Shown piece after piece: positions 23,959 to 35,915 of a stretch of 37,934 nucleotides of DNA. Positions within the stretch are counted from its first letter, which is position 1. Every line of letters begins with the position of its first letter. A program made the position numbers and the translations under genes. The stretch is from Sedimentisphaerales bacterium (GTDB taxonomy: Bacteria; Planctomycetota; Phycisphaerae; Sedimentisphaerales; Anaerobacaceae): contig JAUWPZ010000017.1 in NCBI GenBank assembly GCA_030611315.1, forward strand, positions 1 to 37,934, in the 5' to 3' direction. The notes under the pieces were generated by a model. It was not told the DNA's origin, did not search any database, and worked only from the letters and a program-made list of their open reading frames with translations.

Positions 23959-24792
23959 ATGGAAGATGATAAGGAATATAGGTTCCTTCTGGACAAGATA
24001 ATGCGGAACGTAAATATAGATTTTCGCGAGTATCGGCCGCAAGTTCTAAAGAGGAGAGTCCGGCACAGGCTCCACGCCGCCGGATGCAAAAACTACTGGG
24101 ATTACATTGCGTTACTTAACAATGACCTTCGCGAGTATGATAGGCTGATAGAGACCCTCACCATAAAGGAGAGCTACTTTTTTCGCGATACAGAGGTCTT
24201 TAAGCTGTTGGAAGACGGAATTATACCTGAGATCGTCTCGCAAAAGCAAGCCGAGGGGGTGAAAAAGATTCGCGCCTGGTCTTGTGGAACAGCCCATGGC
24301 CAGGAGGCCTTTAGCATGGGCATACTGTTCCGCGAGGTCCTGGGTAACAAAATAAAGGATTTCGACATAAAGATATTAGCTACCGATATCGATAAAGATG
24401 CCTTGGAAAAAGCACCATGGGGTTCCTACGATGGAAGGGCCTTGCGCAAGATGAGCCCCCATCTGTTGTTTAAATACTTCACCCGGGTCAGGAATAGATA
24501 TGTGGTCAGTGACCGTGTGAGGGTCTTGGTGAGCTTCCGGCACCACGATATAGTCTCAGGCATCCCAAAGAGGAGCATGGACTTAGTGCTGTGCAGAAAT
24601 CTTCTGATATATTTTCAAAAGGAGCTTCAGGAGAAAGTCCTCCGCAACCTGCATGCCGCCCTAAGCCCCGGCGGGTTTCTCGTCCTGGGAAAGACGGAGA
24701 ACCTTACAGATCAAATGAGGGGCTGTTTTGAAGTGGTGGATTTGATCGAGAGGCTCTATAGAAAACAATCATCTCTCAGCGTGAGAGCTTAA
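23959..24792 (+). CDS. cheR: Chemotaxis protein methyltransferase CheR
   Basis: This 277-residue protein is a full CheR, the SAM-dependent enzyme that methylates glutamates on chemoreceptors during adaptation. Residues 1-75 form the helical N-terminal domain ([18 protein letters not shown]) and the family signature ESYFFRD is near 71. The SAM motif is [13 protein letters not shown] (about 104-116), where most CheR proteins have CSTGEEPYS; the acidic residue is kept but the motif has an extra His. Later come the DIDK and [12 protein letters not shown] motifs. No TPR or pentapeptide-binding extension is present. It is the first gene of the rightward cluster, with the receptor gene 25 bases downstream. 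Confidence 0.93.
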
Positions 24793-24817: not shown

Positions 24818-27037
24818 ATGAAAATGACAATTGGAAAAAAGTTGGGTTTTGGTTTTGGGATTGTGCTTTTGATCTTTGCAATCTCCGGACTGGTCAGTGT
24901 TATCCTGCTCAGAGATATTGACAACCACCTGGATGACGTAATTAATGTACAGGAGCCTATAAGCGCGGCGGCCTATGAGATGGAGATCAATTTGATTGGC
25001 ACAGGATTCGGCCTCTTGGGCTATCTGGAGGACCGTAACCCGACACACATAGACCGCATTAAAGGCGATGTAGATAATTTTGCAAAATATCAAAAAGAGT
25101 ACAGCAACCTGGAACAGACAGAGAAAGCCAAAGAGTTGGGCCTTAAGCTTAATAAGGAATACGATAACTTCAAAACCTTAGCCTATAAGCTTATCGGGCT
25201 CGATGATGACCAGGACAAGAAGATAGTTACCTTATTTAAAAACCATGAGGAGATGGACAATCTTCTGGATGACAAGATTCAGGTTTCCATCGAACCTAAT
25301 GAACCTCAAGCCTATGAAAAGATGCAGGCTGCCATGGAGATGGAAATCAATGTCAATAGAATTGCCAAGGGCCTGGGGAAATACTTGATAGCCCACGAGG
25401 CAAAATATGAGGAGCGTGTTTTGAAGGATGAAGCTGATTTCAGACGTTTTACAGAAGTATATAAAGGCCTTAGTCTCACGCCCGAGGAGAAACAATGGTC
25501 ATTAGAGATGAGCCGCCTTTTTGAGGATAGCGCAAAGCTTTCCCAGGAGATTATCAAATTAGATAAAGAGATAGGAGCAGGCCGGGATGAATTTGTCACA
25601 ATTCAAAGAGATATGGGTGTTCTATTGGATGATGAAATCCAGGCTCGCGCCGACACAGATCTCAAGGCCGCAGATGAAGAAGCCAGCAAATCGATCAGCA
25701 TTGCCACTACCATGATTCTGTTCTTACTACTGGGTGGAATCATTATCGGGGGTACTGCCGCCGTTTTCATTACTCGAGGCGTAACCAATCCTGTTCGCAA
25801 GCTGGTGGATGTCTCAGGTATTGTTGCCAAAGGCGACCTCACCCCTGAGATGGAGGTTAAAAGCAAAGATGAGATAGGGCAGCTCGCCGGTTCGTTCAAG
25901 AAGATGGTTGGCAGTTTGCGAGAGATAGTTGGGCGGGTTATGAATACTTCAACAGGAGTTTCTGCCTCGAGCCAACAGCTCTCCTCGGCCGCCCAGCAGT
26001 CCAACGCCACTATGCAGGAGGTATCCTCTGCCATTGGCCAGCTTGCCAAGGGGGCCCTGACACAGGCGCAGAGGGTAGAGGAGACCACTAGGGTAATGGA
26101 ACAGCTCAACGCCTCAATCTCCCAGGGAGCCAAATCCGCCCAGGATGCGGCCTCCGCTTCATCCCAGGCCAGCGAGTCCGCACAGAAGGGGGCAGAGACG
26201 GTAAAGACGGCCATCGAGACCATGGATAAGATTGAGAACTCTACCACTGCTACTTCCCAGGCGGTAACGAAATTGGGCGAGCGCTCTGAGCAAATGTCTC
26301 GAATCGTGGATGTGATAACCAATGTCGCCGACCAAACCAACCTCTTAGCTCTGAACGCAGCCATTGAGGCAGCCAGGGCAGGTGAGGCGGGCAGAGGCTT
26401 TGCAGTGGTCGCTGAGGAGGTGCGCAAGCTCGCGGAGAATTCATCCAGCTCTGCTGCCGAGATAGGTCAGCTCATCAAAGAGACCATCAGCGAGACCGAA
26501 GCTGCAGTAAAGAATATGGAGGCAAGTACAAAAGAGGTCGCATCGGGAAAGGATATGATTGCCAACGCAGGGGATATCCTGGAAGAGATCCAGCAGGCCA
26601 GTCAGAACGTCTCTACAATGCTCCAGCAAATCTCGGCTGCCTCTCAGCAGATGGCCTCAGGCGCCAAGCAGGTGGTCAGATCGGTAGAGGATGTAGCTAC
26701 TATAGCTGAGCAGGCATCCAGCTCCACCCAGCAGGCCAGCGCCTCTACTCAACAAATGCTGGCCACTATGCAGGAGATGGCCTCCTCTGCCCAATCGCTT
26801 GCCGAGATGGGGATAGAGCTAAATGGCATGGTGTCGGAGTTCAAGACTGGTGAAGAAGCAACAGTAGTAACGCCTAAATCTCGAGTTCCAAGGCCTCGAC
26901 CGGCCAAACCGATGGCCAAGAGGCTTGCTGAAGCCAGAAAGAGAATGGAGAAAATGGCGCAGTCAGAGCCGCCTGGAGCCCAGGAAGAGGTCGCGGTTGG
27001 TTCGGGTTATTCAGAAGTGAGGCACAACAATGACTGA
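24818..27037 (+). CDS. Methyl-accepting chemotaxis protein with duplicated sensor domain
   Basis: This 739-residue receptor has TM1 at about 10-31, a helical periplasmic sensor 32-290, TM2 at about 293-316, a HAMP domain about 317-370 ([20 protein letters not shown]), and a long cytoplasmic coiled coil with the highly conserved hairpin tip [20 protein letters not shown]. About 155 residues follow the tip before the tail, close to 22 heptads, which fits a 44H-type receptor (my estimate). The sensor consists of two similar halves, residues about 51-155 and 171-275, offset by exactly 120 residues (both start with EMEIN and end with LLDDxIQ). A basic tail follows. The ligand is unknown. Its stop overlaps cheW by eight bases, tying it to this pathway. 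Confidence 0.93.
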
Positions 27038-27530
27038 GCAAGTCAAAGAAACCAAGGGCCCCATGATTCAGTTGGTCAATTTCCGGCTCAGGGACGAGGA
27101 GTTTGGTGTTGATATTGGCTCGGTGAAGGAGATAATCAGGATGGCGGAAATTACTCATATACCGGATGCCCCTTCGTTTATCCACGGCGTGACAAACTTG
27201 AGAGGCCAGGTCATAGCGGTGATAGATTTGGCTAAGCAGTTTGGCCTTGCCCCCCGACAGGACCTTGGCGAAAGTGCCAGGATTGTAGTTACAGAGATAA
27301 AGGAACAAACAGTAGGAATGTTGGTGGACGAAGTCCCGGAGGTGTTGAAGATACCGTCTGCGAATATCGAGCCGGCGCCGGAGCTGATTCAGACCGAAGT
27401 CAAAAAAGACTACATCAAGGGAGTCGGCAAATTGGACAATAGGCTCATTATCATCCTGGATTTGGAGAAGCTCTTAGCCGACCATGAGGTCGAAGAGCTG
27501 ACCAAGGCGAATGTACCAACGGCAAAATGA
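27030..27530 (+). CDS. cheW: Chemotaxis coupling protein CheW
   Basis: This 166-residue protein is a single CheW domain: [24 protein letters not shown], then [26 protein letters not shown] with the conserved NLRG receptor/kinase-binding segment, and [19 protein letters not shown] near the end. It links the receptor to CheA at the inner face of the membrane. It begins inside the receptor gene, and the CheY gene follows after 18 bases. Nothing unusual in the sequence apart from a short C-terminal tail. Confidence 0.95.
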
Positions 27531-27536
27531 GTGAGT

Positions 27537-27542
27537 GGAGGT
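27537..27542 (+). promoter_or_regulatory. Ribosome binding site deciding the cheY start
   Basis: GGAGGT lies six bases before the ATG at 27549. It favours that start over the in-frame ATG-less extension beginning at 27531, directly after the cheW stop. Confidence 0.7.
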
Positions 27543-27548
27543 AAACAC

Positions 27549-27923
27549 ATGGCTGATATCATGATAGTCGATGATTCCAAGTTTACGCGCAAGATGCTCT
27601 CCGACATCCTTGTTGAGGAGGGACACCAAATTGTCGGAGAGGCCGAGAATGCCGAGGAAGCTGTGGAGCTCTATGAGAGGCTCAGGCCGGACCTGGTAAC
27701 CTTAGACATTATTATGCCTGAGATTGAAGGAACAGACGCCATCTCCGCCCTGAAGGAGATGGTAAGAACGGACCCCAAGGCCAAGGTGGTAATGGTCAGC
27801 GCTATGGGGCAGCAGGACGTGGTCGAAGAATGTATTCAGGTCGGAGCCAGAGACTTCATAGTAAAACCCTTTCAGCCATCCAATATAGCGGGAGTGGTCG
27901 AAAGTGTATTGAAGGGTGTTTAA
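27549..27923 (+). CDS. cheY: Chemotaxis response regulator CheY
   Basis: A single receiver domain of 124 residues. The acidic pair is in IMIVDDSKFTRKML, the phospho-acceptor Asp in LVTLDIIMPEIEG, the switch Thr/Ser position in VVMVSAMGQQ (Ser), and the Lys in FIVKPFQPSN. There is no output domain, so its target is probably a motor or another protein. The start at 27549 is chosen for its ribosome binding site and the usual receiver beginning. Among the single receivers of the window it is the one inside the che core, between cheW and cheD. Confidence 0.93.
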   Translation: MADIMIVDDSKFTRKMLSDILVEEGHQIVGEAENAEEAVELYERLRPDLVTLDIIMPEIEGTDAISALKEMVRTDPKAKVVMVSAMGQQDVVEECIQVGARDFIVKPFQPSNIAGVVESVLKGV

Positions 27924-27964
27924 CCTTGAACGCAAAGACTCAAACGTCAGTTGGCCCGGAGACC

Positions 27965-28447
27965 ATGGAGTTAACGGTTGGAATGGGTGAAATAACGGTT
28001 GCGGAATCGCCCCTGCTCCTTAGGGCGCTTGGAGTAGGTTCATGTATGGCAGTAACGCTGTATGACAGAAATACCTCGATAGGAGGCCTGGCTCATATCA
28101 TGCTGCCTTATATAGAAGAGGCGTTCGATAAGTCCTGTCCTGCCAGATATACAGATGCCGCCATAGGCATGATGATAGACCGGATGCAAAAGCAAGGCGC
28201 CCGTATTCAACATGTAAGGGCCAAGATATTTGGGGGAGCAAATATGTTCTCAGAGATAATCTCCTCCGACAGCACCATGGATGTAGGCAAGAGAAATATC
28301 TCGGCAGTGAGGGAAGAATTAGAAAGGCGTAATATTGAAATCATCGCTGAAGACGTGGGCGAACATATTGGCCGCAGCGTGCTATTTGATACTTCGGATG
28401 GTTCTGTAGTAGTAAAGACCGTCAACACCGGCGAGAAAAGGTATTAG
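27965..28447 (+). CDS. cheD: Chemoreceptor glutamine deamidase CheD
   Basis: About 160 residues from the ATG at 27965. CheD deamidates glutamines of receptors and, in systems with CheC, binds CheC and boosts its phosphatase activity. The family signature is clear: a short VGMGEITVAE start, LGVGSCMAVTLYD with the catalytic Cys, and GGLAHIMLP with the catalytic His, then KIFGGANMF. A TTG at 27926 would add 13 residues, with a weak GAAGGG upstream; the ATG fits the usual N-terminus better. The frame is also open further upstream into cheY, but that part is unrelated. CheB follows immediately. Confidence 0.92.
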   Translation: MELTVGMGEITVAESPLLLRALGVGSCMAVTLYDRNTSIGGLAHIMLPYIEEAFDKSCPARYTDAAIGMMIDRMQKQGARIQHVRAKIFGGANMFSEIISSDSTMDVGKRNISAVREELERRNIEIIAEDVGEHIGRSVLFDTSDGSVVVKTVNTGEKRY

Positions 28448-28459
28448 TTGGAAATAACC

Positions 28460-29551
28460 ATGACTAAGACTAAGAAGATACGGGTTTTGGTGGTAGATGA
28501 TTCGGCGTTTATGCGAAAGATGCTCACCAAAGCAATCGAGTCCGACCCCCAGTGCAAGGTCATAAAGACCGCCAAAGATGGTGTGGAGGCTTTACGAGCC
28601 GTAGAAAAACTAAGGCCCGATGTAGTTACTTTGGATATTGAGCTGCCTGAGATAGACGGCCTTACCTGTCTCGGCTATATCATGGAAAAGTTTCCCACCC
28701 CCGTCGTGATGGTTACCGGCTTTAGCGAATTCTTAGGTGAAGAGACCATAAAGGCCCTGGAATATGGCGCTGCAGGTTTCGTACGTAAACCCAAGGGGTC
28801 GATATCTGGGAATATGGGGGAAATAGAACAAGAGCTAATATCGCAGATAAAGCTTGCCTCGCAGGTAGATGTAAACAAGCTAACCCCAGTAACCGTGAAA
28901 AAAGCCAAAGAGAAGGTACAAAAACCTGTCGCTACAAGCACAAATAGAATAGTGGCGATTGCCGGCTCATCCGGCGGTCCCCGGGCCTTAAGCCGGATAA
29001 TCCCACGGCTGCCGGCCGATCTGCCGGCGGCGGTGCTGGTTGTTCAGCATATACCTGCTGAATTCATCCCCTCCCTTGCTAAAAGGCTTGATTGGGAATC
29101 GGAGCTTAACGTCAAAGTTGCAGAGGACTCCGAGCCTGTCCAACAGGGAAGAGTCCTGATTGCGCCATCAGGCTTTCACTGCAGGATTGCGTCAAGCCGA
29201 GATAATGGTGAAGCGATTGAGCTGGTCCCTCATGCAAAAGAGAAGAACTTTCATTATGCCGTGGCTGATGAGCCTATGATTTCCCTGGCGCCCATCTACG
29301 GCAGGAGCGCAGTTGGAGTGGTCTTAACAGGTATGGGAAATGACGGGACAGAAGGTCTGCGGGCTATCAGGAAATATGGTGGCTACACAATCGCAGAGCA
29401 TGAGTCTTCCGCAGTTGTCTATGGCATGCCCAAGGCAGCCGTCCAGGCAGGTGTGGTTGATAAAATCGTTCCATTAGAACGGATAGCTGATGAGATTGCC
29501 AAAACAGTCAGCGGTAAAGTAGAGATTAGTAATGAAAATATCAGAGTATAA
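28460..29551 (+). CDS. cheB: Protein-glutamate methylesterase CheB
   Basis: This protein of about 363 residues has the normal CheB layout: an N-terminal receiver (VLVVDDSAFMRKML, phospho-acceptor in TLDIELPEIDG), a linker rich in Lys and Val, and a C-terminal methylesterase. Catalytic residues are the Ser in AGSSGGPRAL, the His in VVQHIPAEF and the Asp in MGNDGTEGL. Phosphorylated CheB removes methyl groups from receptors, opposing CheR. A TTG at 28448, straight after the cheD stop, would add four residues; I prefer the ATG. The stop overlaps cheA by 20 bases. Confidence 0.95.
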   Translation: MTKTKKIRVLVVDDSAFMRKMLTKAIESDPQCKVIKTAKDGVEALRAVEKLRPDVVTLDIELPEIDGLTCLGYIMEKFPTPVVMVTGFSEFLGEETIKALEYGAAGFVRKPKGSISGNMGEIEQELISQIKLASQVDVNKLTPVTVKKAKEKVQKPVATSTNRIVAIAGSSGGPRALSRIIPRLPADLPAAVLVVQHIPAEFIPSLAKRLDWESELNVKVAEDSEPVQQGRVLIAPSGFHCRIASSRDNGEAIELVPHAKEKNFHYAVADEPMISLAPIYGRSAVGVVLTGMGNDGTEGLRAIRKYGGYTIAEHESSAVVYGMPKAAVQAGVVDKIVPLERIADEIAKTVSGKVEISNENIRV

Positions 29552-31166
29552 ACAACTGTTTCTGAGTGAAGCACGGGAGATACTGAACTCATTAAACAAT
29601 GTCCTGGTTGACCTTGAGAAGGAACCGGCGAATACAGCCTTGCTCAATGAGCTGTTTCGCCAAAGCCACACCTTAAAGAGCATGGCCCAGAGTATGGGAT
29701 ATGAGGGAATTGCAAAACTCACCCATTCCATGGAAACCACCCTGGCATTATTGAGGAGCGGAGGGGCGAAGCTGGAAAAAGATATCGTGGACTTACTGTT
29801 CAAATCCATGGACACCCTGGGCGAGTTAATTGAAGAGAGGGCAAAAGGAAAGGCAGAGAAGGTAGAAGTGGCTGCGTTAGTGGAGAGATTTGAAGAGATT
29901 GCCTCCGCGGTCCCAAAAGAGAAGAGAAAACCTGTGGACAAAGAAAGACCGGAGCTAAAGCTGGATAATATTGACAACTCAGCTTCTTCTCTCGGCGAAC
30001 TCCAGACGGTGCGGGTCCCTTTAACTCAACTCGATAACCTCATGGACCTGACCGGAGAATTGGCCATAAATAGAATCAGGCTCTCCCAGATAGTTCAAAC
30101 AATAGCCGATAGTGCCCTAAAAGAGACTGTGGCCCAGCTCTCCAGGCTGACTTCTCAGCTCCAGGACCAGATGATGCAGGTCAGGCTCGTACCCTTGGAG
30201 TATATCTTTACTCCTTATCCCAGGATGGTCAGAGACATGGCAGTCAACCAGAAGAAAGAGGTGGATTTCGTCATTGAAGGAGGCCATATAGGTCTGGATC
30301 GCAGTATTCAAGATGAGATAAACGAACCATTGCTCCATCTCTTGAAGAATGCAGTTACTCATGGTATTGAAGAGCCGCAGGAAAGAGAAAGGCTGAAAAA
30401 ACCCAGAAGGGGAAAGATAAGGCTCTCAGCCAGAAGAGAGAGGAATTTTGTAGTTCTGGAGCTCTCCGATGATGGCCGTGGTATGGATGTCGAAGAAATA
30501 AAGAAAGTTGCCCTCCAGACAGGAATCATCACAGCCAAAGAACTCTCCGCTCTCAGTCCGAAAGAAATAGTAACGCTTATCACTCGCCCCGGCTATAGCG
30601 GGGCCAAAAAAGTCACTGAGGCAGCGGGCAGAGGTGTGGGGCTGAACGCATCGAAAATCAAGGCCGAATCACTCGGAGGAACATTAGACATAGATACCAG
30701 GCCGAATGAGGGCGCCACCTTCTCTATCAAACTGCCTCTGACTATAGCTATAGCCCAGGCCATGCTCGTAGGCATTGCGGACCAGACGTACTGTATCCCG
30801 TTATCTTACATAGCGGAGACGATAAAGGTTTCACAACCACAGATTAAGACGATAGAGCACCGCGAGGTGATTTCTTATAGAGATACGGTGCTTCCCTTGG
30901 TCAGATTGAGGGGGAAATTCGGCTTTGACTCTTCGAAATTGCGGTCCCCGGTCGCGGACGTTCCAAACGGCCCTGCGATCCCAGTGGTTGTGGTTGAGGG
31001 CGGAGCAAAGAAAGCGGGTTTAGTAGTGGATAGTTTCTTAGGTCAACAAGAGGTTGTGATAAAGCCTTTGACAGGGTTCTTAAAAGAAATCAAAGGCGCC
31101 TCCGGTGCAACCATCCTGGGCACGGGAAAGCCGGCCCTGGTTATGGATGTCGGTTCGCTGCTATAG
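29532..31166 (+). CDS. cheA: Chemotaxis histidine kinase CheA lacking a P2 domain
   Basis: This 544-residue kinase has a P1/HPt domain (residues 1-110) with the phosphorylated His in RQSHTLKSMA near 46, a short linker (about 110-150), a P3 dimerisation region with LMDLTGELAINRIRL, the P4 ATPase (DEINEPLLHLLKNAVTHGIE N-box, DDGRGMD G-box, and GRGVGLNASK), and a C-terminal P5 CheW-like domain. There is no room for a P2 domain, which in E. coli CheA docks CheY and CheB, so regulators must bind P1 or P4 directly. It begins inside cheB, and cheC follows. Confidence 0.95.
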   Translation: MKISEYKQLFLSEAREILNSLNNVLVDLEKEPANTALLNELFRQSHTLKSMAQSMGYEGIAKLTHSMETTLALLRSGGAKLEKDIVDLLFKSMDTLGELIEERAKGKAEKVEVAALVERFEEIASAVPKEKRKPVDKERPELKLDNIDNSASSLGELQTVRVPLTQLDNLMDLTGELAINRIRLSQIVQTIADSALKETVAQLSRLTSQLQDQMMQVRLVPLEYIFTPYPRMVRDMAVNQKKEVDFVIEGGHIGLDRSIQDEINEPLLHLLKNAVTHGIEEPQERERLKKPRRGKIRLSARRERNFVVLELSDDGRGMDVEEIKKVALQTGIITAKELSALSPKEIVTLITRPGYSGAKKVTEAAGRGVGLNASKIKAESLGGTLDIDTRPNEGATFSIKLPLTIAIAQAMLVGIADQTYCIPLSYIAETIKVSQPQIKTIEHREVISYRDTVLPLVRLRGKFGFDSSKLRSPVADVPNGPAIPVVVVEGGAKKAGLVVDSFLGQQEVVIKPLTGFLKEIKGASGATILGTGKPALVMDVGSLL

Positions 31167-31180
31167 AAGGAGATTTCGCC

Positions 31181-31798
31181 GTGACATTGGTTGATTTTGA
31201 TAAAATCCGATTAGATGCATTTAGAGAAATCAGCTCGATAGCTACAGGTAATGCAGCCACAAGTCTATCAGCCATGTTGGACAGAAAAGTGGATATCACA
31301 GTACCCAACATTATGGTGGAGGCCCTCGAAGAGATTCCGGAGCTCTTAGGAGGGGCGGAGAAGGCCATGACCACGGTCTATTTCACGGTAAGCGGCCAAG
31401 TCCCAGGGAGCATTCTTCTGCTGTTTTCCTCTTCTGAATCTCTGAGGTTGGTCAATATTCTTACCGGTCAGAAGGTCGAACAGATTGAGGGCCTCGACGA
31501 GATGGGAATATCAGCATTGAAGGAGTTGGGAAACATCGTAATTGGGTCCTACGTGCGGGTACTGGCCGAAGGGCTGAAAATGGCGATTGGCTATTCCGTC
31601 CCTGGATTTACGTATGATATGATGGGCGCCATTTTGGACGAGACCCTGGCTCGCTTGTCGTTGGAGCAAAAGCACGGTGTAATCGTGGAAAGTGAATTTA
31701 TCGTGAGAGAGAAGATATATCGAGGCCACCTTGCCTTCATCCTGGCGCCAAAGGCTGTTAACGACATAATCAAGGCACTGGGGAACTGGGCCGAATAA
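31181..31798 (+). CDS. cheC: CheY-P phosphatase CheC
   Basis: This 205-residue protein starts at a GTG with AAGGAGA upstream. It shows the two CheC/CheX-type active-site motifs: FREISSIATGNAATSLSAML near residue 15 and LKELGNIVIGSYVRVLAEGL near 110, each with the Glu and Asn of the E-x(2/3)-N phosphatase signature. CheC dephosphorylates CheY-P and is stimulated by CheD, which is encoded three genes upstream. Together with CheR, CheB and CheD this gives three adaptation routes. A short gap of 56 bases follows before the HPt gene. Confidence 0.93.
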   Translation: MTLVDFDKIRLDAFREISSIATGNAATSLSAMLDRKVDITVPNIMVEALEEIPELLGGAEKAMTTVYFTVSGQVPGSILLLFSSSESLRLVNILTGQKVEQIEGLDEMGISALKELGNIVIGSYVRVLAEGLKMAIGYSVPGFTYDMMGAILDETLARLSLEQKHGVIVESEFIVREKIYRGHLAFILAPKAVNDIIKALGNWAE

Positions 31799-31854: not shown

Positions 31855-32277
31855 ATGGACATCTTCTACGAAGAGACACATACTCTCATTGACGAGATGA
31901 GACAGCATCTATCTGTCTTGAGTCAAGAACCAGAAACGAGCAATGAAACCATTTGTTCTTCCAATAAGCCCTTCGAATTGTCTCAAGATACAGTCCCGGA
32001 TCAACATTCGGCCTTCCGCCGTCTCTTCCGGTGCGCGCATATTATTAGGAGTTCTTCGCGGAGCGTTGGTCTTGACGGCCTGGAAAAAGTTACCGGAGCC
32101 TTGGAGAAGATCTTCTATAAGCTCGGCGATGAGAGATTTGTGATTACTGCTGAGGTTGTCTCCTTGCTTTCCGAAAGTGTGGAGGCCTGCCGGAAACTGC
32201 TGAATGAAGAAGAAATCGTTGGTCATAAAGAGTTATTGGACCGGCTGAACGGTATTCTTCAGCCTTGTGGAGGTTAG
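31855..32277 (+). CDS. Stand-alone HPt (phosphotransfer) domain protein
   Basis: This 140-residue helical protein resembles a histidine phosphotransfer domain: RLFRCAHIIRSSSRSVGLDGLEKVTGALEKIF gives the phospho-acceptor His near 62 with the helix pattern expected after it. The usual Lys-Gly after the His is Arg-Ser here. The N-terminal 50 residues are less conserved. No kinase or receiver domain is present. Lying between cheC and a receiver-histidine kinase, it could shuttle phosphate between CheA or the hybrid kinase and the many single receivers downstream. This is inference. Confidence 0.7.
   Translation: MDIFYEETHTLIDEMRQHLSVLSQEPETSNETICSSNKPFELSQDTVPDQHSAFRRLFRCAHIIRSSSRSVGLDGLEKVTGALEKIFYKLGDERFVITAEVVSLLSESVEACRKLLNEEEIVGHKELLDRLNGILQPCGG
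32269..32273 (+). promoter_or_regulatory. Ribosome binding site deciding the start of the receiver-kinase gene
   Basis: GGAGG lies eight bases before the GTG at 32282 and overlaps the end of the HPt gene. It supports 32282 over the overlapping GTG at 32267. Confidence 0.6.
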
Positions 32278-32281
32278 CTGC

Positions 32282-33613
32282 GTGGGCGAGAAACCTATCA
32301 AAGTTCTGTTAATTGAGGACAGCGTCTTCGCTACTCGACACACACAGAAGATGTTGGCTGAGGCAAATGGTTCTCATATCGATGTCCAATTAGAATGTGC
32401 CGAGCAGCTCTCGGCGGGCCTGAAGCGCTTAGCCGAGGGCGGGATCGATATTGTCTTGTTGGACCTCACGCTGCCGGATTCCCATGACTTGGATACATTC
32501 ACCAAAGTGCACACCCAGGCGCCGCAAGTGCCCGTTGTGGTTCTGACCGGGCTTGGTGATGAAAAGCTCGCAGTCGAGGCCGTCCGCAAAGGTGCGCAGG
32601 ACTATCTGGTCAAAGGTCACATAGACAGCAACTTGTTGAAACGCTCTATTCTCTACGCCATAGAGCGCAAGCGAGTGCAGGAAGAATTGAGGAAATCCCG
32701 CGAGCACCTTGGAGAACTCGTGGAGGAGCGCACCGAACAGCTTAGAAAGACTAATCAACAACTCAGAGATGAAATCGCCGAACACAAGAAGGCTCAGGAG
32801 AATCTCCAGGAAGCCTACAAACGTTTGGAAAAGCAGTCCATGGTTCTGGCGCAAACAGAGAAGATGAGCGCCATAGGCACCTTGGTTGCGGGCACAGCCC
32901 ACGAGCTGAACAATCCAATGATGGGGATATTGAACTTTACCGCACATTGCATAAAACACACTTCCGAGGAAGACCGGCGATATACGGTGCTGCAGGATAT
33001 CGAGCACGAAGCGAAACGCTGTACTAAGATTGTTCAGAACCTCTTAACGTTTTCACATACCGAGCAGGATGATGATAAAGCATATCAGAAAGAGAGTCTG
33101 GCCGAAATCCTTGGTCGGGTCCTCAGATTATTGTCATATCGCATTGAGAAACAAAGGATTCTGGTAACTCAGCATATTGCGGAAGACACCCCCAAAATCT
33201 GGATGAAACCAAACAGCGTACAGCAACTAATCCTGAATCTCACCACCAATACCCTCGATGCTTTGGAAGGGAGCGAGAAGAAGGAGCTTAATGTTGATAT
33301 CGGCAGAGAAGGTGAATATGTTCGGATGACAATTGCGGATACCGGCTGCGGAATTTCTGAGGATTCTCTCAAATCAATCTTTGTTCCGTTTTTCACAACC
33401 AAGCCGGTTGGGCAGGGAACAGGCCTGGGACTCTCTGTATCTCAGGGCATAGTCAAGACACATGGAGGAAAAATCACCTGCCAGAGCGAACCCGGAGTGG
33501 GGACGAAGTTCACAATTTTATTGCCAATAGAAAGGAGCAGACAAGATGAGGAAGCGAATACTCGTAATCGACGACGATTTAGCGATAAGAAAATCGTTTG
33601 CGCTGGCACTTGA
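32282..33613 (+). CDS. Receiver-histidine kinase hybrid
   Basis: About 443 residues. It has an N-terminal receiver (KVLLIEDSV, phospho-acceptor in [11 protein letters not shown] near residue 61), then a coiled coil (about 125-190, many Glu/Gln/Lys), a DHp helix with [15 protein letters not shown] as the phosphorylated His motif, and an HATPase with TGCGISED and [18 protein letters not shown]. There is no membrane segment or PAS domain, so it is cytoplasmic and its input is probably phosphorylation of its own receiver. The frame continues about 28 residues past the normal kinase end (FTILLPIE), overlapping the next gene by 68 bases. It lies directly before the receiver-KaiB pairs and is the most likely kinase for them. 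Confidence 0.9.
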
Positions 33614-33929
33614 GGATGCAGACTGCCAGGTCGATACGGCAGAATCCGGCGAGGCCGGCATCGATAAGGCGTCCAACACTGAGTATGACTTGATATTCCT
33701 CGACCTCAAAATGCCGGGGATAAACGGTGTCGAAACGCTGATCAGGCTGCGAGACAACGGATACAAAATGCCTATTTACATTGTAACGGCCTTTCATAAA
33801 GAGTTTATAGACCAGCTCAGAATAGCCGCTGAAGAAGACTACGAGTTTGAAGTCATGCAAAAGCCCATCGAGAGTCAGGACCTTGTTATGATAACAAAGG
33901 CTGTTCTTAAAGGGGCAGGAGCGTATTGA
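33546..33929 (+). CDS. Response regulator paired with KaiB (first pair)
   Basis: A 127-residue single receiver. Its acidic pair is in [10 protein letters not shown], the phospho-acceptor in LIFLDLKMPGINGVETL (Asp 53), the switch Thr in IYIVTAFHKEF (Thr 81) and the Lys in VMQKPIES. The segment TAFHKEF is not typical of receivers and is identical in the second pair (34224). It starts 68 bases before the end of the kinase gene, so translation is coupled. KaiB follows after four bases. No output domain. It is close to the receiver at 34224, indicating tandem duplication. Confidence 0.92.
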   Translation: MRKRILVIDDDLAIRKSFALALEDADCQVDTAESGEAGIDKASNTEYDLIFLDLKMPGINGVETLIRLRDNGYKMPIYIVTAFHKEFIDQLRIAAEEDYEFEVMQKPIESQDLVMITKAVLKGAGAY

Positions 33930-33933
33930 GGAG

Positions 33934-34227
33934 ATGACCGTGTACGAATTTAGACTTTACATTATAGGCCGAACGCCGAAGTCGATAGATGTCATCGAGG
34001 AATTGGTAAGGCTTTTGGAAGATGCGCTTGACGGCTACTACCATCTTGACATCATCGATATAATTGACAATCCGGCACTGGCTGAGAAAGATGAGATTTT
34101 GGCCACACCTGCATTAAAAAAAGTCTCCCCTGAGCCGGCGAGAACAATTGTCGGTGATTTGTCGGACGCCGAAACGGTGTTATTGGCGCTTGGGTTAACC
34201 GCTCTGCGAGAAGAAGCTGAAAAATGA
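33934..34227 (+). CDS. KaiB-family protein (first copy)
   Basis: This 97-residue protein is a single KaiB domain. Its start YEFRLYIIGRTPKS, the middle LDIIDIIDNPALAEKDEILATPALKKVSPEP and the end IVGDLSDAETVLLALGL follow cyanobacterial KaiB along its whole length, including the GDLSD segment, which includes the fold-switch residues known from Synechococcus KaiB. In cyanobacteria KaiB binds KaiC and helps set the clock phase; KaiB proteins in other bacteria have been linked to stress. No KaiC or KaiA is in the window. It sits four bases after a receiver and overlaps the next receiver by four bases, so the pair is translated together. GTG/ATG context: ATG at 33934 with GAGGAG upstream. Confidence 0.92.
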   Translation: MTVYEFRLYIIGRTPKSIDVIEELVRLLEDALDGYYHLDIIDIIDNPALAEKDEILATPALKKVSPEPARTIVGDLSDAETVLLALGLTALREEAEK

Positions 34228-34625
34228 GTGAACGTATCTTGGTAATTGACGATGAGAAAGCCGCAAGGATGTCGTTTATCTTGGCGCTTAAAGATACCGG
34301 ATTCGAGGTGGATACGGCTGAATCAGGCGAGAAAGGCCTTCAGATGAAGAATGATGCCGAGTACGACCTGATCTTTCTTGACCTCAAGATGCCGGGAATG
34401 AACGGTATCGAGACCCTGCGCCAAATACGCAAGACCGACAAAAAGGTCCCCATTTACATCTTCACAGCTTTTCATAAAGAGTTTCTTGACGAACTGAAAA
34501 TCGCTCAGAAGGAAATGTTGAGCTTCGAGGTTCTCAAAAAGCCCATCGGCGCCGACCTGATTGTCACGCTTACGAAGCTTATTTTGGGGCAACCTGAGGA
34601 AGCTGAAGAGGCCAGCTATGTATGA
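34224..34625 (+). CDS. Response regulator paired with KaiB (second pair)
   Basis: A 133-residue receiver, close to the one at 33546: ILVIDDEKAA, FLDLKMPGMNGIETL (Asp 53), IYIFTAFHKEF, and LKKPIG. It shares the uncommon TAFHKEF segment. The acidic tail (EEAEEASYV) differs. It overlaps KaiB1 by four bases at its start and KaiB2 by eight at its end. It carries no output domain. The likeness of the two receiver-KaiB pairs in sequence and order shows a tandem duplication of the unit. Confidence 0.92.
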   Translation: MSERILVIDDEKAARMSFILALKDTGFEVDTAESGEKGLQMKNDAEYDLIFLDLKMPGMNGIETLRQIRKTDKKVPIYIFTAFHKEFLDELKIAQKEMLSFEVLKKPIGADLIVTLTKLILGQPEEAEEASYV

Positions 34626-34935
34626 ATTCAGGCTTTACCTCTATATTTCAGGCGAAACAACGAATTCGGCAGCTGGCGCCTGGAGTGTGAAATCGCTCTT
34701 GAATGAAGCGTTTAGAGGTCGGTACTCTCTCGAAGTCATAAATGTTCTCGATCATCCACAGCGGGCTGAGAATGATAACATTTTGGCCACACCTACGCTA
34801 ATAAAGGCTGCACCTCCACCAGAGAGAAGGGTTGTTGGCGATTTGTCAGACAAAGAAAAGGTGGCAGCGGCGCTTGGATTGACTACCGACAAAGAGAAGC
34901 AAGAAACGCCCCGGCACCCGGAGTCTTCTCAATGA
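34618..34935 (+). CDS. KaiB-family protein (second copy)
   Basis: A 105-residue KaiB domain. The start YEFRLYLYISGETTNS, SLEVINVLDHPQRAENDNILATPTLIKAAPPPERR and VVGDLSDKEKVAAALGL follow the family; GDLSD and ATPTL are kept. There is a small insertion near residues 12-22 relative to copy 1, and the tail is longer and charged (TDKEKQETPRHPESSQ). I use the ATG at 34618, eight bases inside the preceding receiver; the frame is open upstream but that part is unrelated to KaiB. Copy 2 is closer to cyanobacterial KaiB in the ATPTL segment than copy 1 (ATPAL). Confidence 0.92.
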   Translation: MYEFRLYLYISGETTNSAAGAWSVKSLLNEAFRGRYSLEVINVLDHPQRAENDNILATPTLIKAAPPPERRVVGDLSDKEKVAAALGLTTDKEKQETPRHPESSQ

Positions 34936-34981: not shown

Positions 34982-35392
34982 GTGAACCCCGCAAAGAAGA
35001 TACTGATAGCCGATGATGAGCCGGGAGTAGTCATGATTCTCGGAATGAGGCTGAGGGCAAATGGCTATCAGGTAATAGCTGCTCACGATGGCGCCCGGGC
35101 CATAGAGCTTGCGCACCTGGAAAAACCGGATTTGATTGTTCTTGATATTAAGATGCCCGGCAAAAATGGCTACAGTGTCCTTCAAGACCTAAGAGAATCT
35201 GTATGTGCAAGGTCAATTCCTATAGTATTCTTCTCCGCCCTCCCGCCCGAGCGAGCGGAAGAAAAGGCAACTCAGCTCGGCGCCGACGGTTTCGTCTCAA
35301 AATCGGCGGACCCGGAGGAAGTAGTTGTCAGAATCAAGGACATTTTCAACAGATTGGAAAACCAGCTCGAACAAACAGCAATAAGGAAATGA
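34982..35392 (+). CDS. Single-domain response regulator
   Basis: A 136-residue receiver with GTG start. The acidic pair is in ILIADDEPGVV, the phospho-acceptor in LIVLDIKMPGKNG (Asp 55), and the switch Ser in VFFSALPPE. The conserved Lys-Pro is Lys-Ser (FVSKSADPEE), an uncommon change. The sequence is closer to ordinary receivers than to the FHKEF pair. A basic, helical tail of about 15 residues follows. It is 46 bases after KaiB2, with no output domain. Confidence 0.88.
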   Translation: MNPAKKILIADDEPGVVMILGMRLRANGYQVIAAHDGARAIELAHLEKPDLIVLDIKMPGKNGYSVLQDLRESVCARSIPIVFFSALPPERAEEKATQLGADGFVSKSADPEEVVVRIKDIFNRLENQLEQTAIRK

Positions 35393-35480: not shown

Positions 35481-35915
35481 ATGAACAAGCGACGAATTCT
35501 GATTATCGATGATGAAACCGACATAGTTACGCTTCTGAGCAAGGCCCTTCAAGGCCACGGCTACGAAGTGATGACGGCGGTCAACGGCTGGGACGGTCTC
35601 GCTCTGGCGAGGATTGAAAAACCGGATTTGATTCTGTTGGACAATCTAATGCCAAAGATGGACGGGCCTACAACACTCGCAAGCCTTAAGGCCATAAAGG
35701 AGACGAGGCGGATTCCAGTCGTGGTGCTCACGGCCCTGTCCGGCAAGAAACATGTTACTGATGCTCTGCAAAACGGAGCTTCTGACTACATTGTCAAGCC
35801 ATTTGATCTCCACTCACTCCTCAAGAGAATTTCCAACGTGCTGAGATTTGGACGCCCCACTGAAACACATGCTTCAAGAAATCGCTCGGAGCCTCTGCGA
35901 ACGACAACGCCCTGA
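35481..35915 (+). CDS. Single-domain response regulator, last gene of the cluster
   Basis: A 144-residue receiver: ILIIDDETDIVTLL, phospho-acceptor in ILLDNLMPKMDGPTTL (Asp 54), Thr in VVVLTALSGK and Lys-Pro in YIVKPFDLHSLL. The last 20 residues are an unrelated basic tail. It follows the previous receiver after about 90 bases, with no output domain. No obvious terminator was found right after it, although gene density drops sharply downstream. Confidence 0.88.
   Translation: MNKRRILIIDDETDIVTLLSKALQGHGYEVMTAVNGWDGLALARIEKPDLILLDNLMPKMDGPTTLASLKAIKETRRIPVVVLTALSGKKHVTDALQNGASDYIVKPFDLHSLLKRISNVLRFGRPTETHASRNRSEPLRTTTP

Follow-up and report, generated by a model that had tools for sequence, protein, structure and literature searches.

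The window, a stretch of 37,934 nucleotides from a Sedimentisphaerales bacterium, carries two tandem pairs of genes, each encoding a single-domain receiver followed by a KaiB. KaiB normally partners KaiC, and the kinase SasA carries a KaiB-like sensor domain. No KaiC was found in the genome of this bacterium or in those of three other bacteria with the same pairing, and on balance the genes probably form a KaiC-independent histidine kinase-receiver-KaiB module, that is, a split response regulator in which a KaiB of fixed fold is the partner or output module of the receiver. We rate this KaiB, a known domain, as new in its KaiC-independent, receiver-linked form. KaiB is a textbook fold-switching clock protein, and a KaiC-free cassette suggests a signalling role without a clock.

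The four genes lie on the forward strand in the order RR1-KaiB1-RR2-KaiB2, at the 3' end of a 12-kb co-directional chemotaxis operon. RR1 (33546-33929, +; 127 aa; PF00072, E 7e-23) is a single-domain receiver placed by its tree in a KaiB-linked subfamily, and RR2 (34224-34625, +; 133 aa; PF00072, E 1.3e-23), which is 56% identical to it, is the second receiver of that subfamily. KaiB1 (33934-34227, +; 97 aa; PF07689, E 5e-23) and KaiB2 (34618-34935, +; 105 aa; PF07689, E 6.6e-23) score 81.1 and 80.7 bits against a curated family cut-off of 27, over positions 1-80 of 82. The junctions are +4 bases for RR1/KaiB1, -4 for KaiB1/RR2 and -8 for RR2/KaiB2. The preliminary description had reported a receiver-KaiB-receiver-KaiB run spaced by -8 to +4 bases, and the coordinates and Pfam matches, the latter far beyond chance, bear it out. 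Judged from the sequence, the GTG at 33940 is more likely the start of KaiB1 than 33934, because the GGAG is better spaced and the N-terminus would read MYEF as in KaiB2; the RR1/KaiB1 gap would then be +10. Two ordinary single-domain receivers follow, RR3 (34982-35392, +; PF00072, E 2.5e-24), which is outside the KaiB-linked subfamily, and RR4 (35481-35915, +; PF00072, E 3.8e-27), which ends the operon. They are 28% and 29% identical to RR1, respectively.

Upstream of the cassette the operon encodes, in order and all on the forward strand, CheR (23959-24792), a methyl-accepting chemotaxis protein (MCP, 24818-27037), CheW (27030-27530), a CheY-type receiver (27531-27923), CheD (27830-28447), CheB (28448-29551), CheA (29532-31166) and CheC (31181-31798). 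CheB was identified from its translated sequence and the others by Pfam. The E values of the Pfam matches range from 1e-14 to 1e-49, and the genes overlap or are at most 26 bases apart. That the receiver-KaiB cassette closes a complete che operon had gone unmentioned in the preliminary description. Between CheC and RR1 lie a stand-alone phosphotransfer (Hpt) protein of 140 aa (31855-32277, +; PF01627, E 1.3e-9) and a receiver-histidine kinase with RR-HisKA-HATPase architecture (32267-33613, +; Pfam and kinase-core BLAST). The kinase noted earlier upstream of RR1 is thus real, though its frame overlaps RR1 by 68 bases (33546-33613). A late frameshift or a lost stop is possible in the kinase gene of the window, because the corresponding overlap in a relative (L018, below) is just a few bases. 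Promoter and terminator scans gave results at chance level.

A KaiB beside a receiver of the RR1/RR2 type and without KaiC was found in three further genomes, so that the sample comprises five pairs from two phyla; of the four genomes, three are drafts. In contig VRUG01000033.1 (L018, the same contig as G022/L014; Mohns locus), from the family of Planctomycetota to which the window belongs, receiver and KaiB are fused into one protein of 231 aa behind a dCache histidine kinase. Contig JAGMEZ010000309.1 (L021), from WOR-3, encodes a receiver, a KaiB and a receiver-kinase. Genome G494 (L129/L134), from the same phylum as L021, encodes a PAS-GAF kinase, a receiver and a KaiB, followed by a receiver-GAF-PAS-HD protein. 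The adjacency of receiver and KaiB is therefore kept in four genomes, and the cassette is rare but conserved. Of the doubled layout described earlier, the pairing is conserved and the doubling is not: the WOR-3 loci have one pair each, and in L018 the contig end truncates a second receiver of the subfamily. Chemotaxis genes stand beside the cassette in the window only, of the four loci, and so are not its general role.

The context of KaiB was surveyed in a scan of genome contigs and in five genome surveys. KaiC lies within 2.5 kb of 192 of the 217 different KaiBs, and common layouts are KaiC-KaiB-KaiB-histidine kinase and histidine kinase-receiver-receiver protein (300 aa)-KaiB-KaiC. Viral contigs gave no relative of the cassette, and plasmids gave ordinary KaiBs only, mostly Cereibacter kaiBC. 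Among the loci read from 395 genomes of the phylum of L029 and from 392 planctomycetes, no further KaiB was found beside a receiver of the RR1/RR2 subfamily. So rare and patchy a distribution would suit a functionless, degenerate remnant of a kaiBC locus. We consider this very unlikely, since the frames are intact and present in two copies in a tight operon with overlapping genes, and the key residues are conserved across two phyla.

Several other KaiB loci were seen in the survey. In L049, L084, L183 and L185 KaiB has no KaiC nearby; its neighbours there are histidine kinases or receiver proteins of other types. KaiB free of KaiC may therefore not be limited to the receiver-KaiB cassette. In Mangrovihabitans endophyticus (L040:873-6891) a receiver-KaiB segment is exactly duplicated, with a receiver-kinase after one copy and KaiC after the other. 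On a contig binned with a Helarchaeota (Asgard) MAG (L089:3049-7811) lie genes for a long receiver protein, two KaiB-KaiC pairs and several histidine kinases, which could reflect real transfer or a binning error. In the non-cyanobacterial MAG isolate RI_55 (L091:8046-10259, +) a KaiB-histidine kinase-receiver protein is encoded downstream of kaiBC; SasA proteins from outside the cyanobacteria are reported to be without the KaiB domain.

In the receiver tree all five KaiB-linked members fall into a single clade (support 100/97), which a wider tree recovers with 98. The motif PIYIxTAF (PIYIxTAFHxEF) is common to them, as are a two-residue insertion around E86-F87 and an FE that precedes the lysine of KP. 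All five also have Y78, which none of 179 other receivers has. In 397 genomes of the class of the window the subfamily gave four matches, every one of them in the cassette, and these came from the two cassette genomes only. D9, D10, the phospho-acceptor D53, T81 and K106 are present in all five, so with acceptor and helper residues in place these are not pseudo-receivers, and a pseudo-receiver of the CikA type, in which the acceptor aspartate is missing, was ruled out. In loci L019-L097, from many phyla, receiver proteins of about 300 aa are encoded upstream of kaiB-kaiC, and their size fits KaiA3. None of five upstream proteins tested (four of 293-321 aa and one of 413 aa) gave a KaiA Pfam match after the receiver. 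We also rejected RR1 and RR2 as stripped forms of KaiA3, as the KaiC-linked 300-aa receivers do not group with them and those tested have no KaiA Pfam match.

In the draft genome of the bacterium (93% complete) the KaiB family profile found exactly two genes, KaiB1 and KaiB2. The KaiC family profile gave RecA only (7e-4), and the best E value of a KaiC-like probe sequence was 0.19; the same search scores true KaiC genes of relatives at E 1e-58 to 1e-70. The earlier statement that the window contains no KaiC or KaiA also held. Part of the assembly may be missing, because RecA was the lone match here while the KaiC profile gave matches in all 14 control genomes; the KaiC-less relatives therefore matter. 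No KaiC was found in the genomes of L018, L021 and G494, in which the weak matches resemble RadA or RecA. The absence is strong in G494, because one contig holds 2.38 Mb of its 2.4-Mb genome. Thus neither the genome of the window nor the other three were found to have the full-length KaiC by which a KaiBC timer is recognized.

The sequences of the two KaiBs have also changed. As the preliminary description stated, both keep GDLSD, but this motif does not hold the fold-switch residues, as was supposed. These are G89 and D91 in T. elongatus numbering (PMC6378743), and in an alignment with PDB sequences they sit in the GLD that follows, where the wild type reads VLIGLDLLY and the locked mutants read VLIALRLLA. 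The site reads ALG in both copies (VLLALGLTA in KaiB1 and VAAALGLTT in KaiB2), so that both contain the G89A of the locked mutant and have Gly in place of D91. KaiB-KaiB contacts on the KaiC ring involve R23, K26, E84 and D91, and R23D/K26D, R22A and D90G (the last two in S. elongatus numbering) impair KaiC binding or rhythm (PMC6769508). KaiB1 has R23D, A24V, K26E and D91G, and KaiB2 has R23A, A24G, K26W and D91G; E84 is kept in both, and neither copy has the set of R23, K26, E84, D91 and A24 expected of a KaiBC timer. The change at K26 alone says little, because this position is variable among KaiC-linked KaiBs. A24 is kept in 188 of 192 KaiC-linked KaiBs and 18 of 20 others, as against none of the five receiver-linked ones (Fisher 5e-8, relatedness ignored), and D91G is found in four of the five compared with 14 of the 192. 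KaiB trees did not recover the five receiver-linked KaiBs as one clade, and a single origin was not rejected (p-AU 0.46).

These data bear on the possibility that the KaiBs still serve a KaiC encoded in an unsequenced part of the genome, with the receivers as input or output of an ordinary kaiBC timer, like KaiA3 beside kaiB3. In its favour, KaiB is an ancient partner of KaiC, and the assembly is a draft of 93% completeness. Many phyla have a gene for a receiver protein of about 300 aa ahead of kaiBC; in Synechocystis the product of the gene before kaiB3 is KaiA3 (PMC11372060). In one survey KaiB was found only with full-length KaiC, in a set pre-filtered on KaiC (Schmelling 2017, PMC5520375). 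However, the distant KaiC which the preliminary description allowed as a partner is disfavoured, because the search found none in any of the four genomes, and that of G494 is a single contig of 2.38 Mb. Moreover, KaiC-linked receivers are long and outside the KaiB-linked clade, and A24 is lost. The changes at R23, K26 and D91 affect positions in the ring that KaiB forms on KaiC (PMC6769508). We regard such a timer as distinctly unlikely.

The structure of KaiB1 was predicted with AlphaFold2, and the alignment depth was four sequences for KaiB1 and likewise for a cyanobacterial control. KaiB1 was modelled as beta-alpha-beta-alpha-beta-beta-alpha (pLDDT 84.5), the fold-switched thioredoxin-like state. 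In a fold search the best match of the model was Legionella KaiB 4KUN (TM 0.82/0.88); it also matched 8UBH, and its TM was 0.76/0.82 against the locked KaiB 5JWR and 0.44 against ground-state KaiBs. The control, a cyanobacterial KaiB with near-identical solved structures, came out in the ground state (pLDDT 76), with a TM of about 0.8-0.95 against 1WWJ and 1R5P and of 0.44-0.54 against the locked forms. The reading of states from shallow-alignment AlphaFold2 models is disputed (PMC10836070, PMC10705582). A metamorphic KaiB favours the ground state by itself and switches to the thioredoxin-like one. For KaiB1 AlphaFold2 gave the fold-switched state only, in which the protein is probably fixed. 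A thioredoxin-like fold might also mean that KaiB has turned into a redox protein of a signalling operon. Redox chemistry is disfavoured because KaiB1 and KaiB2 contain no cysteine at all, let alone the CxxC of thioredoxin; already contradicted by the sequence, this idea is scarcely credible.

A kinase gene is adjacent to receiver-KaiB in all four loci. In BLAST against the kinases of every locus read, the cores from the window, L018 and L134 matched one another best; that of the window is 64% identical to L018 and 44% to L134, and the sensor domains differ. The L021 kinase is not of the shared kind. On another reading KaiB never touches the receivers, which are simply co-transcribed; made as a protein of its own, it would serve the histidine kinase or the chemosensory array in the manner of a SasA-like sensor or adaptor domain. 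In the fold search, fold-switched KaiB resembles the sensor domain of SasA, and in other KaiC-less loci, such as L049, KaiB stands beside a kinase with no receiver between, which, with the kinases just described, speaks for such an adaptor. Yet the constant neighbour of KaiB is the receiver, to which it is fused in L018, and not the kinase, which is of another kind in L021, and the chemotaxis genes are confined to the window. An adaptor of this sort is unlikely, although it deserves some weight.

For the split response regulator we prefer, the following scheme may be drawn. A dedicated kinase would phosphorylate the special single-domain receiver; in the window this would be the upstream receiver-histidine kinase, and perhaps also CheA via Hpt. 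KaiB, permanently fold-switched, would be the constant partner of the receiver, as a detached output or adaptor domain. The receiver and a KaiB in its binding-competent fold would form a lasting pair, fused outright in L018, with KaiB acting on a further partner. Phosphorylation of the receiver may alter the binding choice of KaiB or how tightly KaiB is held, and KaiB may relay the signal. The simplest target would be the kinase itself, on which KaiB would act as a kinase/phosphatase switch, as it does on CikA in the cyanobacterial clock. We infer, then, direct binding of receiver and KaiB, dependence of their link on phosphorylation and feedback of KaiB on the kinase. The earlier proposal that KaiB was recruited to receivers gains from the conserved dedicated clade, the lack of KaiC, the fusion in one relative and the kinase that is always adjacent. 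Gating through fold switching is unlikely, given the substitutions at the switch residues and a model that already has the switched fold.

With a little less than even confidence, we suggest that KaiB here may be a bona fide response-regulator output module, which evolved away from KaiC, became locked in the thioredoxin-like fold, was carried from one phylum to another in a receiver-KaiB cassette, fused or not, and was plugged into different sensor kinases and, here, a chemosensory operon. If so, the basic skill of KaiB would be binding receiver-like domains and not timing, and the cassette, including a natural single-chain fusion, would be a minimal system for the origin of the circadian CikA-KaiB link.

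We found no description of a receiver-KaiB system in the literature searched, chiefly open-access papers, and none there of KaiB outside a KaiC setting beyond the remark that Gloeobacter is without kaiC (PMC5520375). Like the KaiBs of the KaiBC/KaiABC timer, those of the window belong to PF07689 (E 5e-23) and keep P63 and the P-x-P and GD motifs. They differ in that A24 and D91 are lost, N27 is changed and no KaiC was found in the genome, and in being predicted as fixed in the fold-switched form and linked to a single-domain receiver. Like the KaiA3/KaiB3/KaiC3 system, the cassette has a receiver gene directly upstream of kaiB, but KaiA3 is about 300 aa long, has a KaiA-like C-terminal half and works with KaiC3, whereas RR1 and RR2 (127 and 133 aa) consist of a receiver only and belong to another clade. 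Legionella Lpp1115 (4KUN) and KaiB-TV4 (8UBH) are natural fold-switched KaiBs that match the KaiB1 model, in gene contexts unlike that of the window; the Legionella kai operon contains a KaiC. As in SasA, a thioredoxin-like KaiB domain is part of a two-component system; unlike in SasA, KaiB is free or receiver-fused and the kinase is a separate chain (in the window, separate genes by Pfam). A precedent for receiver-KaiB binding, left unnamed in the preliminary description, is the CikA pseudo-receiver (PDB 5JYT and 5JWO, mutants), which binds fold-switched but not ground-state KaiB via beta2-beta2 (PMC6378743), the contact being made by its alpha1-beta2-alpha2 face (PMC12632262). Residues private to the cassette receivers map to alpha1 and to beta4-alpha4-beta5 and do not clearly coincide with that face, so the receiver-KaiB contact need not copy that of CikA. 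The cassette receiver also differs in being phosphorylatable, on a separate chain or fused to KaiB, and with no known KaiC scaffold. The two systems have in common a receiver fold and a fold-switched KaiB that are probably partners, and the involvement of a histidine kinase.
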